From: a virus
Direction: 5' to 3' (one strand)
Virus record (IMG/VR): IMGVR_UViG_3300042549_000453
Span: 1 to 21,934 of that record
Length of the DNA: 21,934 bases
Shown piece after piece: positions 3,199 through 19,608 of the stretch. Under the pieces are notes generated by a model. The model searched no databases. It was not told the origin of the DNA and saw nothing but the letters and a program-made list of their open reading frames with translations. Position 1 is the stretch's first letter. Every line of letters starts with the position of its first letter. The position numbers and the translations under genes are program-made.

Positions 3199-3670
3199 TT
3201 GAGTTCACAATCGGGCGAGCCTTGCGCAGCCTGATTTCTTCTTCAACGATGAACAGCGCCTGCTCCATCTCCTTGACAGAGCAGTGGTCCAGTTGAGTGT
3301 CGTGCAGATCCATCACCAGCTTCACAGCAGTCATCTCTGGCCCTGTGAAGACGAACGACCCCTTCTCAAAGCCGCGCCTGCCCATCGTGTAAACAGCGTC
3401 CTGCGCGGCCCTGATCTCGTCGGCCCAGTCGCGGCCAAGATCGTCGCGCACCCTTATCAGCGCCTCGCTCATGTTGACTGCGGCAATGATCACGTCCACA
3501 TGATCTCTGGTGCCTTGGCCCCTCAAAATGGAGTCCAGCGCCTCGTAATTCTTAAGTTTGAGCGCCACCCCGGCAGTGGGTAGTGTGCCCACCTTCTTCA
3601 TGCCGGCAATGATCCACGACATGTTGTCGTAGCGCACGCCACGGGGTTTGTACTTGCTTTTCTTTTTCAT
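3164..3670 (-). CDS. Conserved phage-type protein of unknown function, last gene of the early operon
   Basis: The 168-residue protein starts with a lysine-rich stretch (MKKKSKYKPRG), followed by a mostly helical soluble sequence with no membrane segment and no catalytic motif I recognise. It overlaps the upstream gene by ATGA (3667-3670) and is the distal gene of the - strand operon. Its last 35 bp run into the end of the endolysin gene, tail to tail, with no room for an intergenic terminator. The basic N-terminus could touch nucleic acid, but that is speculation. Confidence 0.75.
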   Translation of the reverse strand: MKKKSKYKPRGVRYDNMSWIIAGMKKVGTLPTAGVALKLKNYEALDSILRGQGTRDHVDVIIAAVNMSEALIRVRDDLGRDWADEIRAAQDAVYTMGRRGFEKGSFVFTGPEMTAVKLVMDLHDTQLDHCSVKEMEQALFIVEEEIRLRKARPIVNSIKQTDALQPCR

Positions 3671-4765: not shown

Positions 4766-5067
4766 GGCTGGCCTTTCGTGATGCCGTGGGTGGATCGCGC
4801 TTTCCAGCCCTCCCATCGGGCGCAAAATGTTTGAGCCTCCCAAGCGTTGTGGGATGTTGGTGCGTAACCGCCTTGGAATTTTGTGCAGTTTGATGGCAGC
4901 TTGAAAACCGATTCAAATTCGGCTTGCTCATCCGTCAGCGGCACAGGTGAGGGCTGTGCAGCCTGTGCTTCTCGCAGGGCGTCTTTTGCATCCTCAAATC
5001 CCCCAGCGCCGTATCGTGTTGCAGCTTCCAACGCCTCCAATGCGAGGCGTAGTGCCTCGTCTTTCAT
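4762..5067 (-). CDS. Small phage protein, paralogue-like to the next downstream gene
   Basis: A 101-residue protein that begins with the helix MKDEALRLALEALEAATRY, very like the start of the following gene (4412-4765). After a proline-rich linker comes a C-terminal part rich in aromatic residues and containing two Cys. Both ends overlap neighbours by ATGA (5064-5067 and 4762-4765). The family is common in phage early regions as far as I recall, but no function is known to me. Confidence 0.75.
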   Translation of the reverse strand: MKDEALRLALEALEAATRYGAGGFEDAKDALREAQAAQPSPVPLTDEQAEFESVFKLPSNCTKFQGGYAPTSHNAWEAQTFCARWEGWKARSTHGITKGQP

Positions 5068-5273
5068 GCCTGCTCCTCAGTGGCCTTGTGCAAATAGGCC
5101 GTCAGGCGCTTGATCTGCGCCTCGCGGTACTTGCACATGCTGTCGGCGTATTCACGCGCTGTCTGGGCCTCCAGCAGCCTGCGCTTGCTGTCCTCCAGTT
5201 CCCGAAGCGCCAGCGATTCAGCGGTCGGTGTGGCGTAGGCGCTTTTCACCCACTCAATGGTTTGACGAATCAT
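5064..5273 (-). CDS. Short coiled-coil protein
   Basis: The 69-residue protein is almost entirely charged helix (about residues 18-65, with Leu/Ala at heptad positions and many Glu, Arg and Lys) and so probably forms a coiled coil. The start shares one base with the stop of the DUF3310 gene (TAATG at 5273) and the stop overlaps the next start. No family is recognised. It may be a dimeric adaptor or inhibitor of a host protein, which is speculative. Confidence 0.72.
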   Translation of the reverse strand: MIRQTIEWVKSAYATPTAESLALRELEDSKRRLLEAQTAREYADSMCKYREAQIKRLTAYLHKATEEQA

Positions 5274-5533
5274 TATTTGGCTCCTTGGTGGCGTGTCTCT
5301 AGTTCGATCAACAACTCGATGTAGTGCTTGGCCTTCTCCAGATCAGCCATGCCGTTCTTTTTGCGCCAGCGGCTGATGTACTTGACCACGTTGCCCTCAA
5401 AGTAACCCAGTGCATTGGCGTGTATGTACTCAACTGGCTGGATCGGCAGATCCTTGTAATGGTTGCCAGCGACTTGCTTGTCCAACGCATTAAATGCTTC
5501 GTCTTCTTCCATCGTGATGGGTAAATCATTCAT
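5273..5533 (-). CDS. DUF3310 protein, first gene of the second early sub-operon
   Basis: The start is taken at the ATG 5533 because AGGAG (5541-5545) lies 7 nt upstream; a GTG at 5560 would add nine residues but has no ribosome binding site. The 86-residue protein shows the DUF3310 (PF11753) signature: GNHYKDLPIQPVEYI and then YFEGNVVKYISRWRKKNG...DLEKAKHYIE. The family is widespread in phages and sometimes annotated as nucleotide-kinase-related, but its activity is not established. The gene follows a perfect 17-bp operator palindrome (5569-5585), so it probably heads a separately regulated unit running to 3164. Confidence 0.88.
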   Translation of the reverse strand: MNDLPITMEEDEAFNALDKQVAGNHYKDLPIQPVEYIHANALGYFEGNVVKYISRWRKKNGMADLEKAKHYIELLIELETRHQGAK

Positions 5534-5566: not shown

Positions 5567-5572
5567 AGTCTA
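5567..5572 (-). promoter_or_regulatory. Candidate -10 box for the DUF3310 sub-operon
   Basis: On the - strand TAGACT follows the operator TCTAGCA-ata-TGCTAGA so that the operator's last TAGA is the first part of the hexamer. The same arrangement is seen at the other promoter-operators of this window. No good -35 box lies 16-18 bp upstream; ATAACA at a 19-bp spacing is the best candidate. An activator or weak basal activity is possible. Confidence 0.45.
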
Positions 5573-5585
5573 GCATATTGCTAGA
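5569..5585. promoter_or_regulatory. 17-bp operator palindrome (site 1)
   Basis: TCTAGCA-tat-TGCTAGA is a perfect inverted repeat with 7-bp arms and a 3-bp centre. It is the best match to the operator family found three times near 11444-11545 and once at 17216-17232. It overlaps the stop codon of the upstream gene (TAG at 5581-5583) and the -10 box of the DUF3310 unit, so binding should block initiation there. Confidence 0.75.
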
Positions 5586-10884: not shown

Positions 10885-11130
10885 TTAGTCAAGGCAAGAA
10901 AAACCAAAATTTTCTGGTTGGTGCGCGGGTTGGCTCATTTCCCAATCCCATTTAGCCTGAAGCTGGCGGGCTTTAGCGTGGGCGATGCCAAGCTGCTCGG
11001 CAGTGCCATAAACATCACCACCGTAGGTGATGCGGTAATCGTTTTTGCCGGCGTGCCACACAATGTGGTCACCGCAAGAACCTGCAAACTTCCAGCCTTC
11101 TGGGTGAGTTGGGATTAAGCGTTTTGTCAT
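10885..11130 (-). CDS. Small early protein of unknown function
   Basis: The start at 11130 has AAGGAAAC just upstream; a frame to 11217 would run through the leader hairpins. The 81-residue protein contains GWKFAGSCGDHIVWHAGKNDYRITYGGDVYGTAEQL, which looks like a small beta-rich domain, followed by a helix and a C-terminal FSCLD. No family is recognised. It is the second gene from the strong early promoter and is set off on both sides by GGGGC/GCCCC hairpins, so it may be expressed at its own level. Confidence 0.7.
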   Translation of the reverse strand: MTKRLIPTHPEGWKFAGSCGDHIVWHAGKNDYRITYGGDVYGTAEQLGIAHAKARQLQAKWDWEMSQPAHQPENFGFSCLD

Positions 11131-11143
11131 TTTGTTTCCTTTG

Positions 11144-11153
11144 GCCTTGCGGC
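11144..11153 (-). promoter_or_regulatory. GNRA-loop mini-hairpin beside the ribosome binding site (copy 1)
   Basis: On the - strand GCC-GCAA-GGC stands immediately before CAAAGGAAA and the ATG at 11130. The same arrangement, GCC-GAAA-GGC then CAAAGGAAA, precedes the gene starting at 11381. Both loops are GNRA tetraloops. Confidence 0.45.
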
Positions 11154-11159
11154 AAATTG

Positions 11160-11177
11160 GGGGCCGAAGCCCCTTTT
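11160..11177. repeat. Intergenic GGGGC/GCCCC hairpin (copy 2)
   Basis: GGGGC (11160-11164) and GCCCC (11169-11173) enclose CGAA, which on the - strand is a stable UUCG tetraloop. On the + strand TTTT follows (11174-11177), so it could be a weak terminator in that direction. It matches the element at 10862-10876. Confidence 0.5.
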
Positions 11178-11180
11178 GGT

Positions 11181-11381
11181 TTAGATGAAGTCGTAAGAAG
11201 TTTCGTTTTGACCGCACTTGCCAAAGCTGATTGCGGGCGTGACCTTTTCACAAATTTTAAAAAATACATCCGTTGCAATCTTGCTGTCTTGTGTTTCCAA
11301 AAACAAAGTGCCGTTAAAAAAGTATGCGGCAGTGTTGGTGATGGACTTAACAACTTCCAAGACGTTTGTTTCGTTGATCAT
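11181..11381 (-). CDS. First gene of the early operon, 66-aa unknown protein
   Basis: The ATG at 11381 has a clear ribosome binding site (AAAGGAAA, 5 nt upstream) and lies about 55 nt after the predicted start of transcription from the strong - strand promoter at 11442-11469. The 66-residue protein is soluble, with alternating hydrophobic stretches (AAYFFNGTLFLE) and two cysteines in the C-terminal half; no family is recognised. As the promoter-proximal gene it should be the earliest and most abundant product of this operon, a place typical for host-takeover factors. Confidence 0.72.
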   Translation of the reverse strand: MINETNVLEVVKSITNTAAYFFNGTLFLETQDSKIATDVFFKICEKVTPAISFGKCGQNETSYDFI

Positions 11382-11441: not shown

Positions 11442-11469
11442 ATTCTAGCAGGTTGATAGAACTCGTCAA
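11442..11469 (-). promoter_or_regulatory. Strong early leftward promoter
   Basis: On the - strand TTGACG (11464-11469) and TAGAAT (11442-11447) are separated by 16 bp; both hexamers match the sigma70 consensus at five of six positions. Operator 11444-11460 covers the spacer and -10 box, and operator 11466-11482 covers most of the -35 box, so a bound regulator should shut it off. It should drive the genes from 11381 towards 3164. Confidence 0.75.
11444..11460. promoter_or_regulatory. 17-bp operator (site 2)
   Basis: TCTAGCA-ggt-TGATAGA is an inverted repeat with one mismatch between the arms. It overlaps the -10 box of the leftward promoter. Confidence 0.72.
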
Positions 11470-11482
11470 GCAGTTTGCTAGA
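11466..11482. promoter_or_regulatory. 17-bp operator (site 3)
   Basis: TCAAGCA-gtt-TGCTAGA lies 22 bp (two helical turns, centre to centre) from site 2 and overlaps the -35 box of the leftward promoter, so cooperative binding is possible. Confidence 0.72.
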
Positions 11483-11528: not shown

Positions 11529-11545
11529 TCAAGCAGTCTGCTAGA
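11529..11545. promoter_or_regulatory. 17-bp operator (site 4)
   Basis: TCAAGCA-gtc-TGCTAGA differs from site 3 only in the central spacer. Its centre lies 63 bp from that of site 3. It overlaps a -10-like TAGACT (11542-11547) just before the YdaS/Cro-like gene. Confidence 0.72.
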
Positions 11546-11556: not shown

Positions 11557-11775
11557 ATGAACACACAAATCACACCAGACGAGCGCCGACAACTGGCAGA
11601 AAAAGTTGGCATCAATGAACAGTACCTCTACCAGTGCCTGACTGGCCGGCGGGAGATGTCAGCCTCTGAGGCTGTGAGGGTAGAACAAGAGACAGGTGGC
11701 CGGTTGGGGCGCAAGATGGTGTGCCAAGGCAGTTGGCAGTCCATCTGGCCTGAACTGGTGGAGGCTCGGGCATGA
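11557..11775 (+). CDS. YdaS/Cro-like helix-turn-helix regulator
   Basis: The 72-residue protein has a single helix-turn-helix of the YdaS/Cro type (about residues 9-48: RRQLAEKVGINEQYLYQCLTG, then EAVRVEQETGGRL). Proteins of this kind bind phage operators as dimers and repress the opposing promoter. It lies exactly where Cro or CII-like genes sit, divergent from the early operon and with three 17-bp operators between, so it is the best candidate in the window to bind them. No Shine-Dalgarno sequence precedes the ATG, and the only -10-like box is about 10 bp upstream, which suggests a leaderless message. The stop overlaps the primase-helicase start (ATGA at 11772-11775). Confidence 0.85.
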   Translation: MNTQITPDERRQLAEKVGINEQYLYQCLTGRREMSASEAVRVEQETGGRLGRKMVCQGSWQSIWPELVEARA

Positions 11776-14451: not shown

Positions 14452-14537
14452 TGGCGTGTGCAAATGCAGTTGCCGCACTTTTGGGGAAAGCACCGCACCG
14501 GTGTGAGTACCCTTATTTTTTAGGAGTCCACAAGTGA
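14448..14537 (+). CDS. Possible 29-aa coupling ORF between resolvase and small terminase
   Basis: The frame starts at an ATG overlapping the RusA-like stop (ATGA at 14448-14451) and ends at a TGA overlapping the GTG start of the small terminase (14534-14537). It has two cysteines and no recognisable domain. The two overlaps suggest translational coupling, but the product is so short that it may be chance. Confidence 0.35.
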   Translation: MMACANAVAALLGKAPHRCEYPYFLGVHK

Positions 14538-15052
14538 CTGAAAACTTGGCGTCAGAGATGACAGTGAAAAGAACAGGGCCAGGTCGAAAGCCGGTGTTTC
14601 CGATTGAACACCCATGCTGGCAAGAAATCTGCAAACAGATCTCAACTGGCAAAAGCCTGACCACCACACTCAAAGCCGAAGGAATGCCAAGCCTTCAATG
14701 CGCAATGGTGATGATTCGGAACAATCCAGAGTTTCGCGCCATGTACGACAAGGCGACCGAAAACAGAGCAGATCGACTGGCTGAAGAGATCATCGAGTTG
14801 TCCGATGCAGAGATGCCAGCACACTTGGAAGGACCAATGGCGTCTGCTTGGGTTCAGCAAAAGCGTATGCAGGTGGACGCACGTAAGTGGGTAGCGTCAA
14901 AGCTGTATGCCAAACGATACGGCGATCGCATTGACGTTGCCGTAACCGACACACGAATCAGCGTCATGGATGCGCTCAAAGAAGCAAAGCAGCGTGTGCT
15001 CAGAGATGAAAGCAACGTAGTGGATGTGGAGAGTAAGGCTGTCGATTCTTAA
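14534..15052 (+). CDS. terS: Terminase small subunit (Sf6/G1P-like)
   Basis: The 172-residue protein starts at GTG with AGGAG 8 nt upstream. The N-terminal part has a helix-turn-helix-like segment (about 35-75: ICKQISTGKSLTTTLKAEGM...MIRNNPEFRAMYDKA), followed by the helical RADRLAEEIIELSD region and KRMQVDARKWVASKL, a pattern typical of Sf6-type small terminases that recognise the packaging start site and form a ring on DNA. The C-terminus carries the part expected to contact the large subunit. Unusually, it is separated from the large terminase by 2.2 kb holding a 370-bp non-coding region, a 537-aa gene and a reverse-strand gene. Confidence 0.88.
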   Translation: MTENLASEMTVKRTGPGRKPVFPIEHPCWQEICKQISTGKSLTTTLKAEGMPSLQCAMVMIRNNPEFRAMYDKATENRADRLAEEIIELSDAEMPAHLEGPMASAWVQQKRMQVDARKWVASKLYAKRYGDRIDVAVTDTRISVMDALKEAKQRVLRDESNVVDVESKAVDS

Positions 15053-15295: not shown

Positions 15296-15422
15296 CCCGT
15301 GGCGGGCCGTCCCGCCGGCGAGGGCGGGGGGGGGAGGGCCGGCGGCGAAGGGTCACGGTGACGGTACCCCCACGAACATTTTTTAATTTTTTGTTTTTTT
15401 AAAAATCAATTAACATCGCCCC

Positions 15423-17036
15423 ATGCCGATCTACCAAAACGCTTTAGCCCAGCGTCCAGCCAACAGGCTGGCGTACCAAGACACCATGAGTGCGACCCCG
15501 CGTAACCAGGTGCTTGGGTACTTGGCTGATTTGGCGGCTGCGTCTTACTCACCGCAGCGCACGCAGCAGATGCAGGGCATGGCGCAGTTCTTGTCACTGC
15601 CAGCGGTTTCACAGACGCTGGACCGGCTGTCCTATGGCGAGCCACTGACCACTGGCAGAGGGATGACCACCCAGATCAGACCAGAGGCTATTGAGGCGGC
15701 AATGGCCGTAGCACCACTGGCGCAACCGGTGACGATGGCAACGCTGGCCGCATCGAGGGCAGCGACAAGGGCAGCGATGGCTGGTGGCAGGGCTGGCGAG
15801 CGTTATGCTGAACGTGTGCTGCCAGGCATCATGGAGCGCGGTGGGTTGCCGGCTCAACTGGTGATGGATTTGACGCAGGGAACCACGGCCAACATGGCTG
15901 AGCGAGTTGGACGGCTCAAAGCAATTGAGGCGTTGTTTCCTGGCAAGACTGAAGCCGCATTAAACCCGGCTGAAAAGTCTGCGCTGACAAAATACAAACA
16001 AATTTTGGATACGCCTGCGGTGATGCGCAGAGAGCAGGCCAGATTGTTTGGCACTGGTGACGTTGTGCAGCCATCATTAAATGTGGCGCAAGAGATTGGT
16101 GTGCATCCCACGGCGTTGCTGGACAAGTATGCGGTGCCTATTTTGTGGGACACCTCGGCCACTGGCGGTAACGTAACGCAGATTGCTGGCGTTCCGTTGA
16201 CGCAAGGGTTGAGGGATGCAACGCCATCGTTTGTTCAGCGTCAAGGCGGCAGGCGTTACCCGTACATTGCGGAAAACTTGCAACAAGGCGTTGGTGGTGC
16301 ATCTAACGAAACAGCGCAGATTTCAAAAATCAACAACTTGAACAAGTTCAGCAATTTGGGCGACACCATTGGTGTGCAAATGAACTTAGCGCCAAGTGGC
16401 ATTAATTTTTCTCACCATGTGGCCGAGTCTTATGTGGGCGCATTGAATACGCTCAAGCCTTCGCGTGAGGCGCTGACATCGTTTAGGGATGCGGTAAGAA
16501 ATACTAAGGTGCAAAACCCCGTCACAAAAGAAATCTTGTACCCGTACAGCAAGTTCCCTGGTTTGGACAGTCCCAACATTCGGGAGATCATGGCCCAAGG
16601 AACTGACGAATACACCCCAGGCAACATTCGCAAGGCAATTGCCGAGGTTGGCTCAACAGCCGCAATGGAGAAGCAAGGCTTTCCCCGCTGGCAAGACATT
16701 TACAACGTGATGAGTGAGCCTGGTGCCGAAACTGGCATGGCGCATACCCTGCTATCGGTCAAGCCAAACACTCAGATGGTGACGCCAAACTTTCAGCACG
16801 GCTCTTACAACGCTGGCCTTGAGGCGCAAGTGCTTGGTTCATTGCAGAATGCACAAGGCCAAGTTGTTGGGGTGCCAGATCGGCTAATGTTACCCAAGAC
16901 ATTTGCCAACAAATTGGCCGAAGGCAAGAACATCAATAACATTCGCACATCGTTGCTCAAAAGCCATCATGGCGAAAAACTGGATCAAGAAGCAATTGAC
17001 AATATTGCTAGATACCTTGGGTATCAGGTTGATTGA
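15423..17036 (+). CDS. Unknown 537-aa protein between small and large terminase genes
   Basis: The protein is soluble with an Ala/Gln/Met-rich N-terminal region (PQRTQQMQGMAQF near 40-52) that resembles the MQGM stretch of the probable virion protein at the left edge of the window. The rest has GINFSHHVAESYVGAL, SREALTSFRDAVRN and a C-terminal MLPKTFANKLAEG / SHHGEKLDQEAIDNIARYLGYQVD. I do not recognise a characterised family; the size and composition suit a virion-associated or large polyvalent-type protein. No Shine-Dalgarno sequence precedes the ATG, which follows an A/T-only tract. The last 29 bp overlap the convergent small gene on the other strand. Confidence 0.8.
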   Translation: MPIYQNALAQRPANRLAYQDTMSATPRNQVLGYLADLAAASYSPQRTQQMQGMAQFLSLPAVSQTLDRLSYGEPLTTGRGMTTQIRPEAIEAAMAVAPLAQPVTMATLAASRAATRAAMAGGRAGERYAERVLPGIMERGGLPAQLVMDLTQGTTANMAERVGRLKAIEALFPGKTEAALNPAEKSALTKYKQILDTPAVMRREQARLFGTGDVVQPSLNVAQEIGVHPTALLDKYAVPILWDTSATGGNVTQIAGVPLTQGLRDATPSFVQRQGGRRYPYIAENLQQGVGGASNETAQISKINNLNKFSNLGDTIGVQMNLAPSGINFSHHVAESYVGALNTLKPSREALTSFRDAVRNTKVQNPVTKEILYPYSKFPGLDSPNIREIMAQGTDEYTPGNIRKAIAEVGSTAAMEKQGFPRWQDIYNVMSEPGAETGMAHTLLSVKPNTQMVTPNFQHGSYNAGLEAQVLGSLQNAQGQVVGVPDRLMLPKTFANKLAEGKNINNIRTSLLKSHHGEKLDQEAIDNIARYLGYQVD

Positions 17037-17196
17037 GCGATTCAAGATGCTCTTTTTCTTTTGCCAACTCTTCGATCAACTGGTTGACGATTTCCAGCCG
17101 CACAGCATCAGGCTGGCCGGAAAAAGCCTCTGGCATTCGCAAGTACGCTGAGTTGTTTGAAAAATTGAATCCGCAGTAGGCAACGACTTTTTTCAT
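17008..17196 (-). CDS. Isolated reverse-strand 62-aa gene inside the late block
   Basis: The ATG at 17196 has GGAGG (17201-17205) 4 nt upstream. The protein begins MKKVVAYCGFNF and continues with a helical C-terminal half (DAVRLEIVNQLIEELAKEKEHLESL) of coiled-coil character. No family is recognised. It lies on the opposite strand to all neighbours within 5 kb and has its own promoter (TTGCAT-16-TAGAAT) overlapped by a 17-bp operator, in the same geometry as the main early promoter. It is therefore probably an early, regulator-controlled gene placed between late genes, and its transcript would be antisense to the end of the 537-aa gene. A role in regulation or host takeover is inferred only. 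Confidence 0.75.
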   Translation of the reverse strand: MKKVVAYCGFNFSNNSAYLRMPEAFSGQPDAVRLEIVNQLIEELAKEKEHLESLNQPDTQGI

Positions 17197-17213
17197 ATGG
17201 CCTCCAAACCTCC

Positions 17214-17241
17214 ATTCTATCAAAACGCTAGATAAATGCAA
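17214..17241 (-). promoter_or_regulatory. Early-type promoter of the isolated reverse-strand gene
   Basis: On the - strand TTGCAT (17236-17241) and TAGAAT (17214-17219) are 16 bp apart, the same spacing and -10 sequence as the promoter at 11442-11469. The -35 box overlaps the annotated start of the large terminase. Confidence 0.65.
17216..17232. promoter_or_regulatory. 17-bp operator (site 5)
   Basis: TCTATCA-aaa-CGCTAGA combines the half-site variant seen in site 2 (TGATAGA in reverse) with a near-consensus half. It starts two bases inside the -10 box at 17214-17219, exactly as site 2 does at its promoter. Confidence 0.65.
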
Positions 17242-18762
17242 ACCACCATCTACAAGCCCGAAGACGAACAGGAGTTAATGGCAACGCTGTGGACACCGGC
17301 GATTGCCGATGACCCCGAAGCCTTTGTGTTGTTTGCTTTTCCCTGGGGCCAAGAGAACACGCCACTGGCGAACTTCAAGGGGCCAAGGAAGTGGCAAAGG
17401 GAAGTGCTGCGTGAGATCACTGAGCACATCAAGCGCCAGCAGGGCCGCATAGACTTTGAGACGCTGCGCAATGCTGTGTCTTCTGGCCGTGGTATTGGCA
17501 AGTCTGCACTGGTGTCGTGGCTCACCATCTGGATGCTGTCCACCCGCATAGGCTCAACCACCATCATTTCGGCCAACTCAGAGTCTCAGCTTCGTGCGGT
17601 GACATGGGCCGAGATCACCAAGTGGTTGGCGATGTCAATCAACAGCCACTGGTTTGAGGTTGCAGCGACCAAGATCACCCCTGCCAACTGGCTCACTGAG
17701 CTGGTTGAAAAAGATCTCAAGAAGGGCACGCGCTACTGGGCGGTTGAGGGCCGGTTGTGGTCAGCCGAAAACCCAGATGCCTATGCTGGAGTTCACAACT
17801 TTGATGGTGTGATGGTGATTTTCGACGAAGCATCCGGTATTGAGGACAGCATCTGGGCTGTTACGGCTGGATTCTTTACCGAAAACACACCTAATCGCTT
17901 GTGGCTGGCTTTTTCCAACCCACGGCGAAACACTGGGTACTTCTACGAGACCTTTCACTCTAAGCGAGACTTCTGGAACACCAAGGTGGTGGATGCCCGG
18001 ACGGTGGAAGGCACCGACAAGGCTGTGTACCAGAACATCATTGACGAGTATGGCCCTGACTCAAGCCAGGCGCACGTTGAGGTTTACGGGCAGTTTCCTA
18101 ATGCTGGCGATGACCAGTTCATACCGTCGAACATTGTGGATGAGGCGATGGGCAGGTCCAAGTACAAGGACCAGACAGCGCCGATCATTGTGGGGGTTGA
18201 CCCTGCACGCTTTGGCGCTGATGCCACGGTGATTGCCATCCGGCAGGGCCGTGACATAGTGCGCATTGACCGCCACCGGGGAGATGACACCATGACGGTG
18301 GTGGGACACATCATTGAGGCCATTGAGGAGTTCAAGCCTGCCTTGGTGGTGATTGACGAGGGAGGTCTTGGGGCTGGCATTGTTGACCGGCTGAAAGAGC
18401 AGCGGTACAAGATCAAGGGTGTCAACTTTGGCAACAAGAGTGCGAACCCCATCATGTATGGCAACAAACGTGCTGAGATGTGGGGCAAGATGAAGGACTG
18501 GCTGAGATCTGCCAGCATTCCAAAGGACAGGTTCTTGAAGACTGATCTGGTTTCGCCTATGATCAAGCCTGATTCAAGGGGTACGATCTTTTTGGAGAGC
18601 AAGAAGGACATGAAGGCCCGTGGTTTGGCGTCACCTGATGCTGCTGACGCCATCTGCGTGACTTTTGCGTTCCCTGTGGCTCACAGAGAGTACACTGAGC
18701 AACCACTCACTAGGCGCAACGCTCAAAACGGTGTCGCCCTTACTTCATGGATGGGTTCGTGA
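17236..18762 (+). CDS. terL: Terminase large subunit
   Basis: The 508-residue protein has the two terminase domains. The ATPase shows the N-terminal FVLFAFPWGQ (30-39), a Walker A-like SSGRGIGKS (82-90), Walker B VMVIFDE (192-198) and a coupling motif in LAFSNPRR (224-231). The RNase H-like nuclease has acidic residues D322 (VGVDPARFG), D374 (VVIDEG) and D471 (near the C-terminus, PDAADA). It pumps DNA through the portal into the prohead and cuts the concatemer. The start at 17236 has no ribosome binding site; an in-frame ATG at 17278 follows AGGAGTTA and is a plausible alternative. The stop shares a base with the next start (TGATG). Confidence 0.95.
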   Translation: MQTTIYKPEDEQELMATLWTPAIADDPEAFVLFAFPWGQENTPLANFKGPRKWQREVLREITEHIKRQQGRIDFETLRNAVSSGRGIGKSALVSWLTIWMLSTRIGSTTIISANSESQLRAVTWAEITKWLAMSINSHWFEVAATKITPANWLTELVEKDLKKGTRYWAVEGRLWSAENPDAYAGVHNFDGVMVIFDEASGIEDSIWAVTAGFFTENTPNRLWLAFSNPRRNTGYFYETFHSKRDFWNTKVVDARTVEGTDKAVYQNIIDEYGPDSSQAHVEVYGQFPNAGDDQFIPSNIVDEAMGRSKYKDQTAPIIVGVDPARFGADATVIAIRQGRDIVRIDRHRGDDTMTVVGHIIEAIEEFKPALVVIDEGGLGAGIVDRLKEQRYKIKGVNFGNKSANPIMYGNKRAEMWGKMKDWLRSASIPKDRFLKTDLVSPMIKPDSRGTIFLESKKDMKARGLASPDAADAICVTFAFPVAHREYTEQPLTRRNAQNGVALTSWMGS

Positions 18763-19193: not shown

Positions 19194-19363
19194 TGCCACT
19201 CGTCAAGTCACCCTCAAAAGAGGCATTTCGCAAGAATGTCAAGGCCGAAGTGTCTGCGGGTAAACCCGTAAAGCAGGCCGTGGCAATTGCGTATTCCGTC
19301 AAGCGCGCGGCGTCCAGCAGCGGTACCTCTGCCAAAAAACCAACAATGAAGACCAAAAAATGA
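19193..19363 (+). CDS. 56-aa lysine-rich phage protein (MPLVKS...QAVAIAYSVKR type)
   Basis: The frame MPLVKSPSKEAFRKNVKAEV... continues with AGKPVKQAVAIAYSVKR and a Ser/Lys tail. I recognise the pattern from small uncharacterised proteins in many tailed phages, next to terminase and portal genes. It overlaps both neighbours (TGATG upstream, ATGA at 19360-19363 downstream), so it is translated in the same series as the GroES-like gene and portal. Function unknown. Confidence 0.78.
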   Translation: MPLVKSPSKEAFRKNVKAEVSAGKPVKQAVAIAYSVKRAASSSGTSAKKPTMKTKK

Positions 19364-19608
19364 GCCTCCAAGCCCTGCAAGACTGCCTGATCGTGCGCCC
19401 AGACATGGAAAAACACGAGTTGTTTATCCTCTTGAGGCAGAAACAAACTGGTACGGGTGTGGTAATCTCCGTTGGGCCTAAAGCCAAGGACGTAAAAGTC
19501 GGCGACAAGGTGCTATTTGGTGATTCCATCGGACAAGACCTAAAATACGAGGGTGACAACCTTCTGGTCATGAGGGAATCACACACCCTCGGAGTATTTG
19601 ACGCATGA
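19360..19608 (+). CDS. GroES-like (Cpn10-fold) co-chaperonin
   Basis: The 82-residue protein follows the Cpn10 pattern: an N-terminal strand LQDCLIVRPD, a loop (18-30) whose FILLR corresponds to the hydrophobic tripeptide of the GroES mobile loop that docks on GroEL, then GTGVVISVGP (31-40), VKVGDKVLFG (46-55) and the C-terminal YEGDNLLVMRESHTLGVF. It is shorter than GroES (about 97 residues), mainly in the roof loop. Phage co-chaperonins such as T4 gp31 replace GroES to fold the major capsid protein. Its place directly before the portal gene (ATGA overlap at 19605-19608) fits that role, which remains inference. Confidence 0.85.
   Translation: MSLQALQDCLIVRPDMEKHELFILLRQKQTGTGVVISVGPKAKDVKVGDKVLFGDSIGQDLKYEGDNLLVMRESHTLGVFDA

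Follow-up and report, generated by a model that had tools for sequence, protein, structure and literature searches.

The question raised by this locus is why a single small gene, p62, should run against both the gene for the large terminase, TerL, and the 537-amino-acid gene preceding it, behind what looks like a copy of the early operator of this freshwater phage. The DNA analyzed here (the window) is a virus record of 21,934 bases, IMG/VR record IMGVR_UViG_3300042549_000453, in which all assignable genes between 11557 and 21803 lie on the + strand except p62. Our answer, drawn from comparison of related sequences and given a probability of roughly one half, is that p62 specifies an early-made cognate partner, most likely an antidote, of a late-made and probably virion-delivered polymorphic effector, the 537-amino-acid protein. 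The parts of the locus are as follows.

15423 to 17036, + strand: 537-amino-acid polymorphic effector gene, C terminus of type A
17008 to 17196, - strand: p62, 62-amino-acid gene, candidate antidote or partner of the effector (ATG at 17196; stop codon ends at 17008)
17201 to 17205, - strand: GGAGG ribosome binding site of p62, read from the sequence
17214 to 17241, - strand: p62 promoter, TTGCAT-16-TAGAAT, its -35 box overlapping the first two TerL codons
17216 to 17232: operator copy, TCTATCAAAACGCTAGA, overlapping four of the six bases of the p62 -10 box
17236 to 18762, + strand: large terminase gene TerL, by gene assignment

To judge from its conservation, p62 is a genuine protein gene. The mechanically called open reading frame is longer, starting from a TTG at 17241 and giving 77 amino acids; the ATG at 17196 was preferred because of the GGAGG at 17205-17201 and because relatives are of equal length. 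p62 is encoded in 28 viral contigs, and its ratio of nonsynonymous to synonymous substitution rates (dN/dS) is 0.073 over 20 distinct sequences and 0.047 over the first 52 codons. An initial annotation of this DNA had singled out a lone 62-amino-acid reverse gene with a ribosome binding site between the 537-amino-acid gene and TerL, and both the GGAGG and the dN/dS value bear it out. A degraded frame in homologous phages, sought as a refutation, was not found: the frame is intact in all 28 contigs, one copy being cut by a contig end and two having a longer C terminus. A chance open reading frame was considered and rejected, given a dN/dS of about 0.07 and homologues in 28 contigs.

Among relatives, the 537-amino-acid gene at the TerL slot has a constant N terminus and a variable C terminus. 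Type A C termini accompany p62, and type B C termini accompany p68, an unrelated 68-amino-acid gene (dN/dS 0.10) at the same antisense position with the same operator-promoter. The separate searches that document this pairing share contigs, and each count applies to its own search. Viewed from the small genes, a type A effector is present in 27 of 28 p62 contigs, the remaining contig ending inside p62, and a type B effector in 46 of 46 p68 contigs, a list that is not exhaustive (L063, L081, L178, L183, L190, L199, and L208 carry p68 too); mixed pairs of effector and small gene are absent among these 28 and 46 contigs. Viewed from the effectors, p62 lies on the opposite strand in 23 of 23 type A loci, and an antisense p68 with overlapping aligned ends is found in 79 of the best 80 of 462 matches in the type B scan, the exceptional contig ending 10 nucleotides past the effector. 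Fifty-one of these 79 loci start at most 60 nucleotides from a TerL start, and 28 contain no TerL homologue. Contig ends truncate loci L028, L030, and L308. A type B relative of 53% identity, in a contig labeled as a Flavobacteriaceae metagenome-assembled genome, is again accompanied by a diverged antisense p68 (profile E value 3.5e-12 in a three-sequence set). In the window, the 3' ends of p62 and the effector gene overlap by 29 nucleotides. Compared directly, types A and B fall below BLAST detection; they align over the C terminus with 25 invariant columns in 45 sequences, and a protein of MW202879 matches both (E values 2e-12 and 1e-40). The two unrelated partners thus seem to go with a single effector family.

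Comparison of the window with a related locus, L048, locates a replaced segment.

15801 to 17209, borders approximate: exchanged cassette relative to L048, comprising effector C terminus and small gene

The flanks of 15800-17210 are 93 to 96% identical, and within this 1.4-kb block there is no detectable DNA similarity. The right border of the exchange separates the small gene from its -10 box: the 26 bases immediately preceding the TerL ATG, which hold the operator and the -10 box, are identical. By this comparison, the effector C terminus and the small gene move jointly, and the operator-promoter stays with the phage. p62 had been pictured as a dedicated regulatory or host-takeover unit, but it does not look like a free-standing one; it is inherited one to one with an effector C-terminal type and is exchanged with it. 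The idea that the operator-promoter travels with the 62-amino-acid gene, a point the initial annotation had proposed to check, is rejected: it stays with the slot, unchanged across the cassette exchange, and serves the unrelated p62 or p68 equally. A second segment replaced relative to L048, between flanks of 93 to 96% identity, lies at 10886-11374 of the window, and the first leftward early genes (a 66-amino-acid frame) also seem exchangeable.

The case for early expression of p62 begins with its promoter, which reads TTGCAT at 17241-17236, a 16-bp spacer, and TAGAAT at 17219-17214. The sites with which it may be compared are the following.

5569 to 5585: fifth operator, within the left early block
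11442 to 11469, - strand: main leftward early promoter, TTGACG-16-TAGAAT
11444 to 11460: early operator, at an offset to the -10 box equal to that at p62
11466 to 11482: early operator with one mismatch
11529 to 11545: early operator at the regulator promoter, with one mismatch
11557 to 11775, + strand: 72-amino-acid Cro/YdaS-type regulator, candidate operator-binding protein, with a Pfam match below its cutoff

The initial annotation had claimed that promoter and operator are arranged alike at p62 and at the main leftward early promoter, and this is confirmed: the operator offset is identical at 17216 and 11444. Sites with no more than one mismatch to TCTAKCNNNNNGMTAGA occur in the window at 5569, 11444, 11466, 11529, and 17216, and a dinucleotide Markov model predicts 0.05 such sites per window (at most 1 in 20 simulations). 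This consensus was drawn from the very sites counted, so conservation is the better test; in relatives with a perfect site both arms are kept around six different middle quintets, over 10 distinct promoter sequences for p62 and 8 for p68. A chance site at p62 was rejected on the Markov expectation and the conserved arms. The operator is perfect in 18 of 28 evaluable p62 promoters and 23 of 37 evaluable p68 promoters; one further p68 slot has a single mismatch, and the remaining slots have two to six.

Across all viral contigs scanned, an operator beside a TerL start was found in 46, and every one leads into p62 or p68. The best 80 of 598 TerL loci give the complementary view: the operator is present in 10, always with a small gene; p68 occurs without it in one; and the other 69 have neither operator nor small gene (that is, neither p62 nor p68). 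Where a contig contains both the slot and the early region, the slot operator agrees with the early operators in 12 of 15 cases (G005, G006, G010, G015 to G019, G021, G024, G025, and the window). In G010, which has no match to the 72-amino-acid regulator, the slot promoter and a site at 3227 have TAGTCAATT-N6-TAGGAT in common at 15 of 15 positions, and nowhere else in that record scores above 13 for the pattern. The site at 3227 lies between rightward early-type genes and a 69-amino-acid regulator-looking gene, by eye a helix-turn-helix regulator. In G014 the slot operator is present and the available part has no match to the 72-amino-acid regulator; G013 has neither. G023 (locus L066) has an ART-PolyVal-like type of effector without a small gene; operators are present in its early region, and its slot lacks one. 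These comparisons make the operator a property of the slot, one that tends to match the regulator of the phage in question.

Several further promoter features were noted. The operator at 5569-5585 precedes a 73-amino-acid reverse frame (5308-5529), has a TAGACT -10-like box at the same offset, and is possibly a second early promoter; a perfect site several kilobases from the regulator also occurs in G005, G015, G016, G018, G019, G021, G023, and G024. One promoter variant, TTGCCTAGTTTTCCTGTAA, without a canonical operator is common to type A (L029) and type B (L077, L170, L335) slots. In the p68 promoters of L154, L155, L156, L160, and L161, the operator is replaced by TTTGGC-N5-GGTAAA, perhaps another operator specificity. 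The contig 3300037487_000033 (L073/L334/L333) has a TerL-side promoter variant whose antisense frame is cut 17 codons in by the contig end; its other end has a different effector C terminus, and joining the ends gives a 19-amino-acid frame.

The position of p68 in other genomes also bears on timing. In L165, L168, L171, and L172, p68 comes after co-directional small genes, and a type B effector with a different N terminus closes the opposing run, tail to tail with p68. The small-gene run of L172 begins at TTGACC-16-TAGAAT, and an operator with one mismatch sits there at the offset seen in the window. p68 would thus be early by position elsewhere, and because this analogue ends an early-type operon in other phages, the early class is the natural reading for p62. 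In L167 and L145, p68 is once more a lone antisense gene, at different places. Its start codon lies 6 nucleotides after the -10 box, so the p68 message is probably leaderless; p62 instead has a Shine-Dalgarno sequence. The effector itself follows DNA-transfer-like genes in L165 and MW202879, which is indirect as to packaging or injection: the L165 gene before the effector is 24.6% identical to a protein so named in phage DSL-LC05, its L172 counterpart is 71% identical to the L165 protein, and the MW202879 counterpart is 26.5% identical.

More distant relatives retain parts of the layout. The MW202879 effector is closer to type B, at 30%, than to type A, at 24%. In the same record (L174), an unannotated reverse 64-amino-acid frame at 5013-5207 overlaps the 3' end of the effector gene; it sits behind a 129-amino-acid frame that shares 45% identity with the gene preceding p68 in L168, and it resembles p62 over the first 19 residues only, a weak match (E value 3.5e-4 in a three-sequence set). 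In the cultured Roseobacter phage CRP-902 (OQ401624), a distant effector relative, gp72, is followed by an antisense gene, gp71. The available text of its description reports no lysogeny genes and suggests a strictly lytic cycle (PMC10149686).

We propose the following sequence of events. The effector would be synthesized late, alongside the packaging genes, then packaged and delivered into the next host cell; delivery by the virion is suggested because slot siblings match LPD23 and, weakly, ART-PolyVal, both of which are known from polyvalent proteins that are injected. While the operator at 17216 is still unoccupied, early in infection, the opposite-strand promoter would make p62. The small protein would then already be there when synthesis of new effector begins, and would follow closely on the arrival of any injected effector. 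Later, the Cro-type protein would occupy the operators, rightward late transcription would run across the small gene, and p62 synthesis would cease while the effector is made and packaged. When the effector C terminus is exchanged, the small gene would go along and the promoter and operator would remain with the phage. Pairing, tail-to-tail overlap, cassette exchange, promoter-operator geometry, protein-level selection, and the place of p68 at the end of early-type operons are all visible in the DNA; early expression, packaging and injection, harm by the effector, neutralization by the small protein, and the identity of the operator-binding protein are what we infer from them.

Several observations weigh against this proposal. 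Physical linkage through overlapping convergent ends could by itself produce the pairing. Other effector types, such as the ART-PolyVal-like one, come without such a small gene. Among the other C termini at the slot, L061 matches LPD23 (E value 2.7e-11), L065 matches ART-PolyVal (E value 2.3e-5, below the curated cutoff), and L062 and L067 have no domain match; in these four and in L093 the effector ends at the TerL start, with no room for a small gene and no operator. Not every slot effector therefore needs one. Domain and structure searches recognized no toxin domain or fold in the type A effector. Of the evaluable slots, 10 of 28 with p62 and 13 of 37 with p68 have at least two operator mismatches, and the agreement between slot and early operators fails in G011, G012, and G020. 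G011 and G012 have an identical slot sequence with a decayed operator, G012 having canonical early sites and G011 a cut early region, and the G020 slot site has no counterpart in G020's own early region. Because of such decayed or absent operators, the slot operator is common but not indispensable. Finally, in phage C72C1 (L175) a 25% identical effector relative is followed by co-directional small genes, and that locus has no p62- or p68-like antisense frame.

Specific early partners of an effector need not be antidotes; p62 and p68 could each be an adaptor, an activator, or an off-switch acting on a virion-delivered effector. All of the pairing evidence fits this alternative equally, and no toxin domain was recognized in type A or type B. 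The 537-amino-acid protein has no Pfam or PHROG match, the sole Pfam row at E values up to 5 being unrelated (0.12), and neither type A nor type B matches a catalogued polyvalent domain. The effector model is poor (mean predicted local distance difference test score, pLDDT, 61.5, with residues 1-159 below 50) and has no PDB match at an E value of 0.001 or better; the best VIA-align hits, to YTH domains (Z 5.4, 132 residues, root mean square deviation 4.0), are at a level that the tool rates as common, and the 11 BFVD matches at 0.001 or better are uncharacterized or unnamed save for one ART-PolyVal-like protein. The p62 model (pLDDT 82.9) gave no useful structural match. In PDB sequence searches the effector profile matched nothing, and p62 and p68 gave weak, unrelated-looking matches alone; p62 and p68 had no match in the phage collection at an E value of 0.1, and NCBIfam and PADLOC searches gave nothing useful. 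Set against this, exchange of a C terminus together with a small gene behind a constant N terminus is the usual signature of a toxin and its immunity protein, and we consider a partner of some other kind unlikely.

A lone early gene with its own promoter is also a typical layout of an anti-defense gene, and p62 and p68 might be independent anti-defense or host-takeover genes hitchhiking beside the effector, with linkage alone yielding the pairing. This is distinctly improbable, since p68 is kept in 79 of the 80 best type B loci, which span several genome contexts and include 28 that lack a TerL homologue, and p68 without type B was not observed in 46 contigs. The transcript of p62 had been predicted to be antisense to late mRNA, and it would indeed oppose the 3' part of the effector gene, whereas selection at the protein level says that the protein matters. 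A mainly antisense function, in which operator-controlled reverse transcription silences the effector gene early in infection, would suit the overlap of convergent ends in 79 of 79 type B loci with sequence past the effector and the lack of terminator-like sites on the - strand at 15300-17400 (a scan that finds fewer sites than shuffled sequences), but it is very unlikely given dN/dS values of 0.05 to 0.10, which indicate strong selection on the protein, and a small gene that swaps with the effector type, which silencing by a reverse transcript would not require.

A gene carried for lysogeny (a moron) was rejected as an account of p62, since none of the 14 large related records searched for the integrase family PF00589 gave a match, a weak test because their completeness is unsure. 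The window has no Rfam match at gathering thresholds to a known structured RNA. Around the locus, the window gene map places the start of the leftward early genes at about 11.4 kb, and the primase-helicase and the 72-amino-acid regulator are transcribed rightward from 11,557, followed by TerS, the 537-amino-acid gene, TerL, a GroES-like gene, and the portal gene.

14534 to 15052, rightward run: TerS

The GroES co-chaperonin-like gene at 19360-19608 sits between TerL and portal, and an early-block gene at 3667-4299 matches a PHROG named ferredoxin. A near search of the window matched a single phage record, DSL-LC05 (OR003940), where TerS directly precedes TerL, leaving neither the 537-amino-acid gene nor p62.

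More tentatively, phages in which no integrase was detected may carry a temporally split effector-antidote system, with a late-made, virion-delivered effector and an opposite-strand antidote wired to the early regulator, in which the fate of the cell would depend on whether the incoming genome starts early transcription; we hold this less likely than not. If it is true, the antidote would be missing from cells that receive the effector yet destroy or silence the phage DNA. The arrangement also shows a way for one gene to be regulated against its operon, and a large set of uncharacterized phage proteins (462 type B matches in one scan) gains a testable partner.

How does this locus compare with known systems? 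A limited literature search found no published account of such an early-gene/late-effector arrangement. The genes of a type II toxin-antitoxin system lie in one self-regulated operon; here they are on opposite strands, and the small gene has a separate promoter with the phage early operator. In phage P1 the operators of the c1 repressor are dispersed, and in P22 the immI region lies within late genes. The locus resembles these in its scattered early-operator copies and its regulated early-type gene inside a late block, and differs in what the extra operator controls, namely a partner gene that is exchanged with a late effector.

Polyvalent proteins, which phages and conjugative elements encode, have been proposed to be injected with DNA, according to the available text of PMC5512222 (Iyer 2017). 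Slot siblings with LPD23 and ART-PolyVal-like domains are similarly phage encoded and near packaging genes; types A and B, unlike the proteins covered there, match no catalogued domain, and that text describes no early antisense partner gene. The locus also works like polymorphic toxin-immunity systems and phage MuF toxins, which, in the available text of PMC5576092 (Jamet 2017) and, for Apk2 toxins, PMC12226406, also have a constant N terminus, a variable C terminus, and a small cognate-looking gene beside the C terminus and swapped with it, as in types A and B. In MuF toxins the small gene is usually immediately downstream (PMC5576092), a usual and not strict criterion for polymorphic toxin-immunity systems; here it is on the opposite strand, convergent, with overlapping ends, and under a phage early operator. 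Because no MuF domain was recognized in the 537-amino-acid protein we do not class it as MuF, and no integrase was found in the 14 large related records. Exchange of a toxin C terminus with its immunity gene has thus been described for bacterial weapons and prophage MuF toxins; here the exchange signature is seen in phages without a detected integrase, and the partner gene is on the other strand and, through a copy of the master operator, apparently of the early class. In CRP-902, gp72 is 22.5% identical to the type B effector of L165 and 23.1% to the MW202879 relative, and it is immediately followed by the 77-amino-acid gp71, the one antisense gene in a run of oppositely oriented genes. The two genes do not overlap at their ends, gp71 is unlike both p62 and p68, and both CRP-902 proteins are uncharacterized; the same layout in a cultured phage nevertheless opens the question to direct test.
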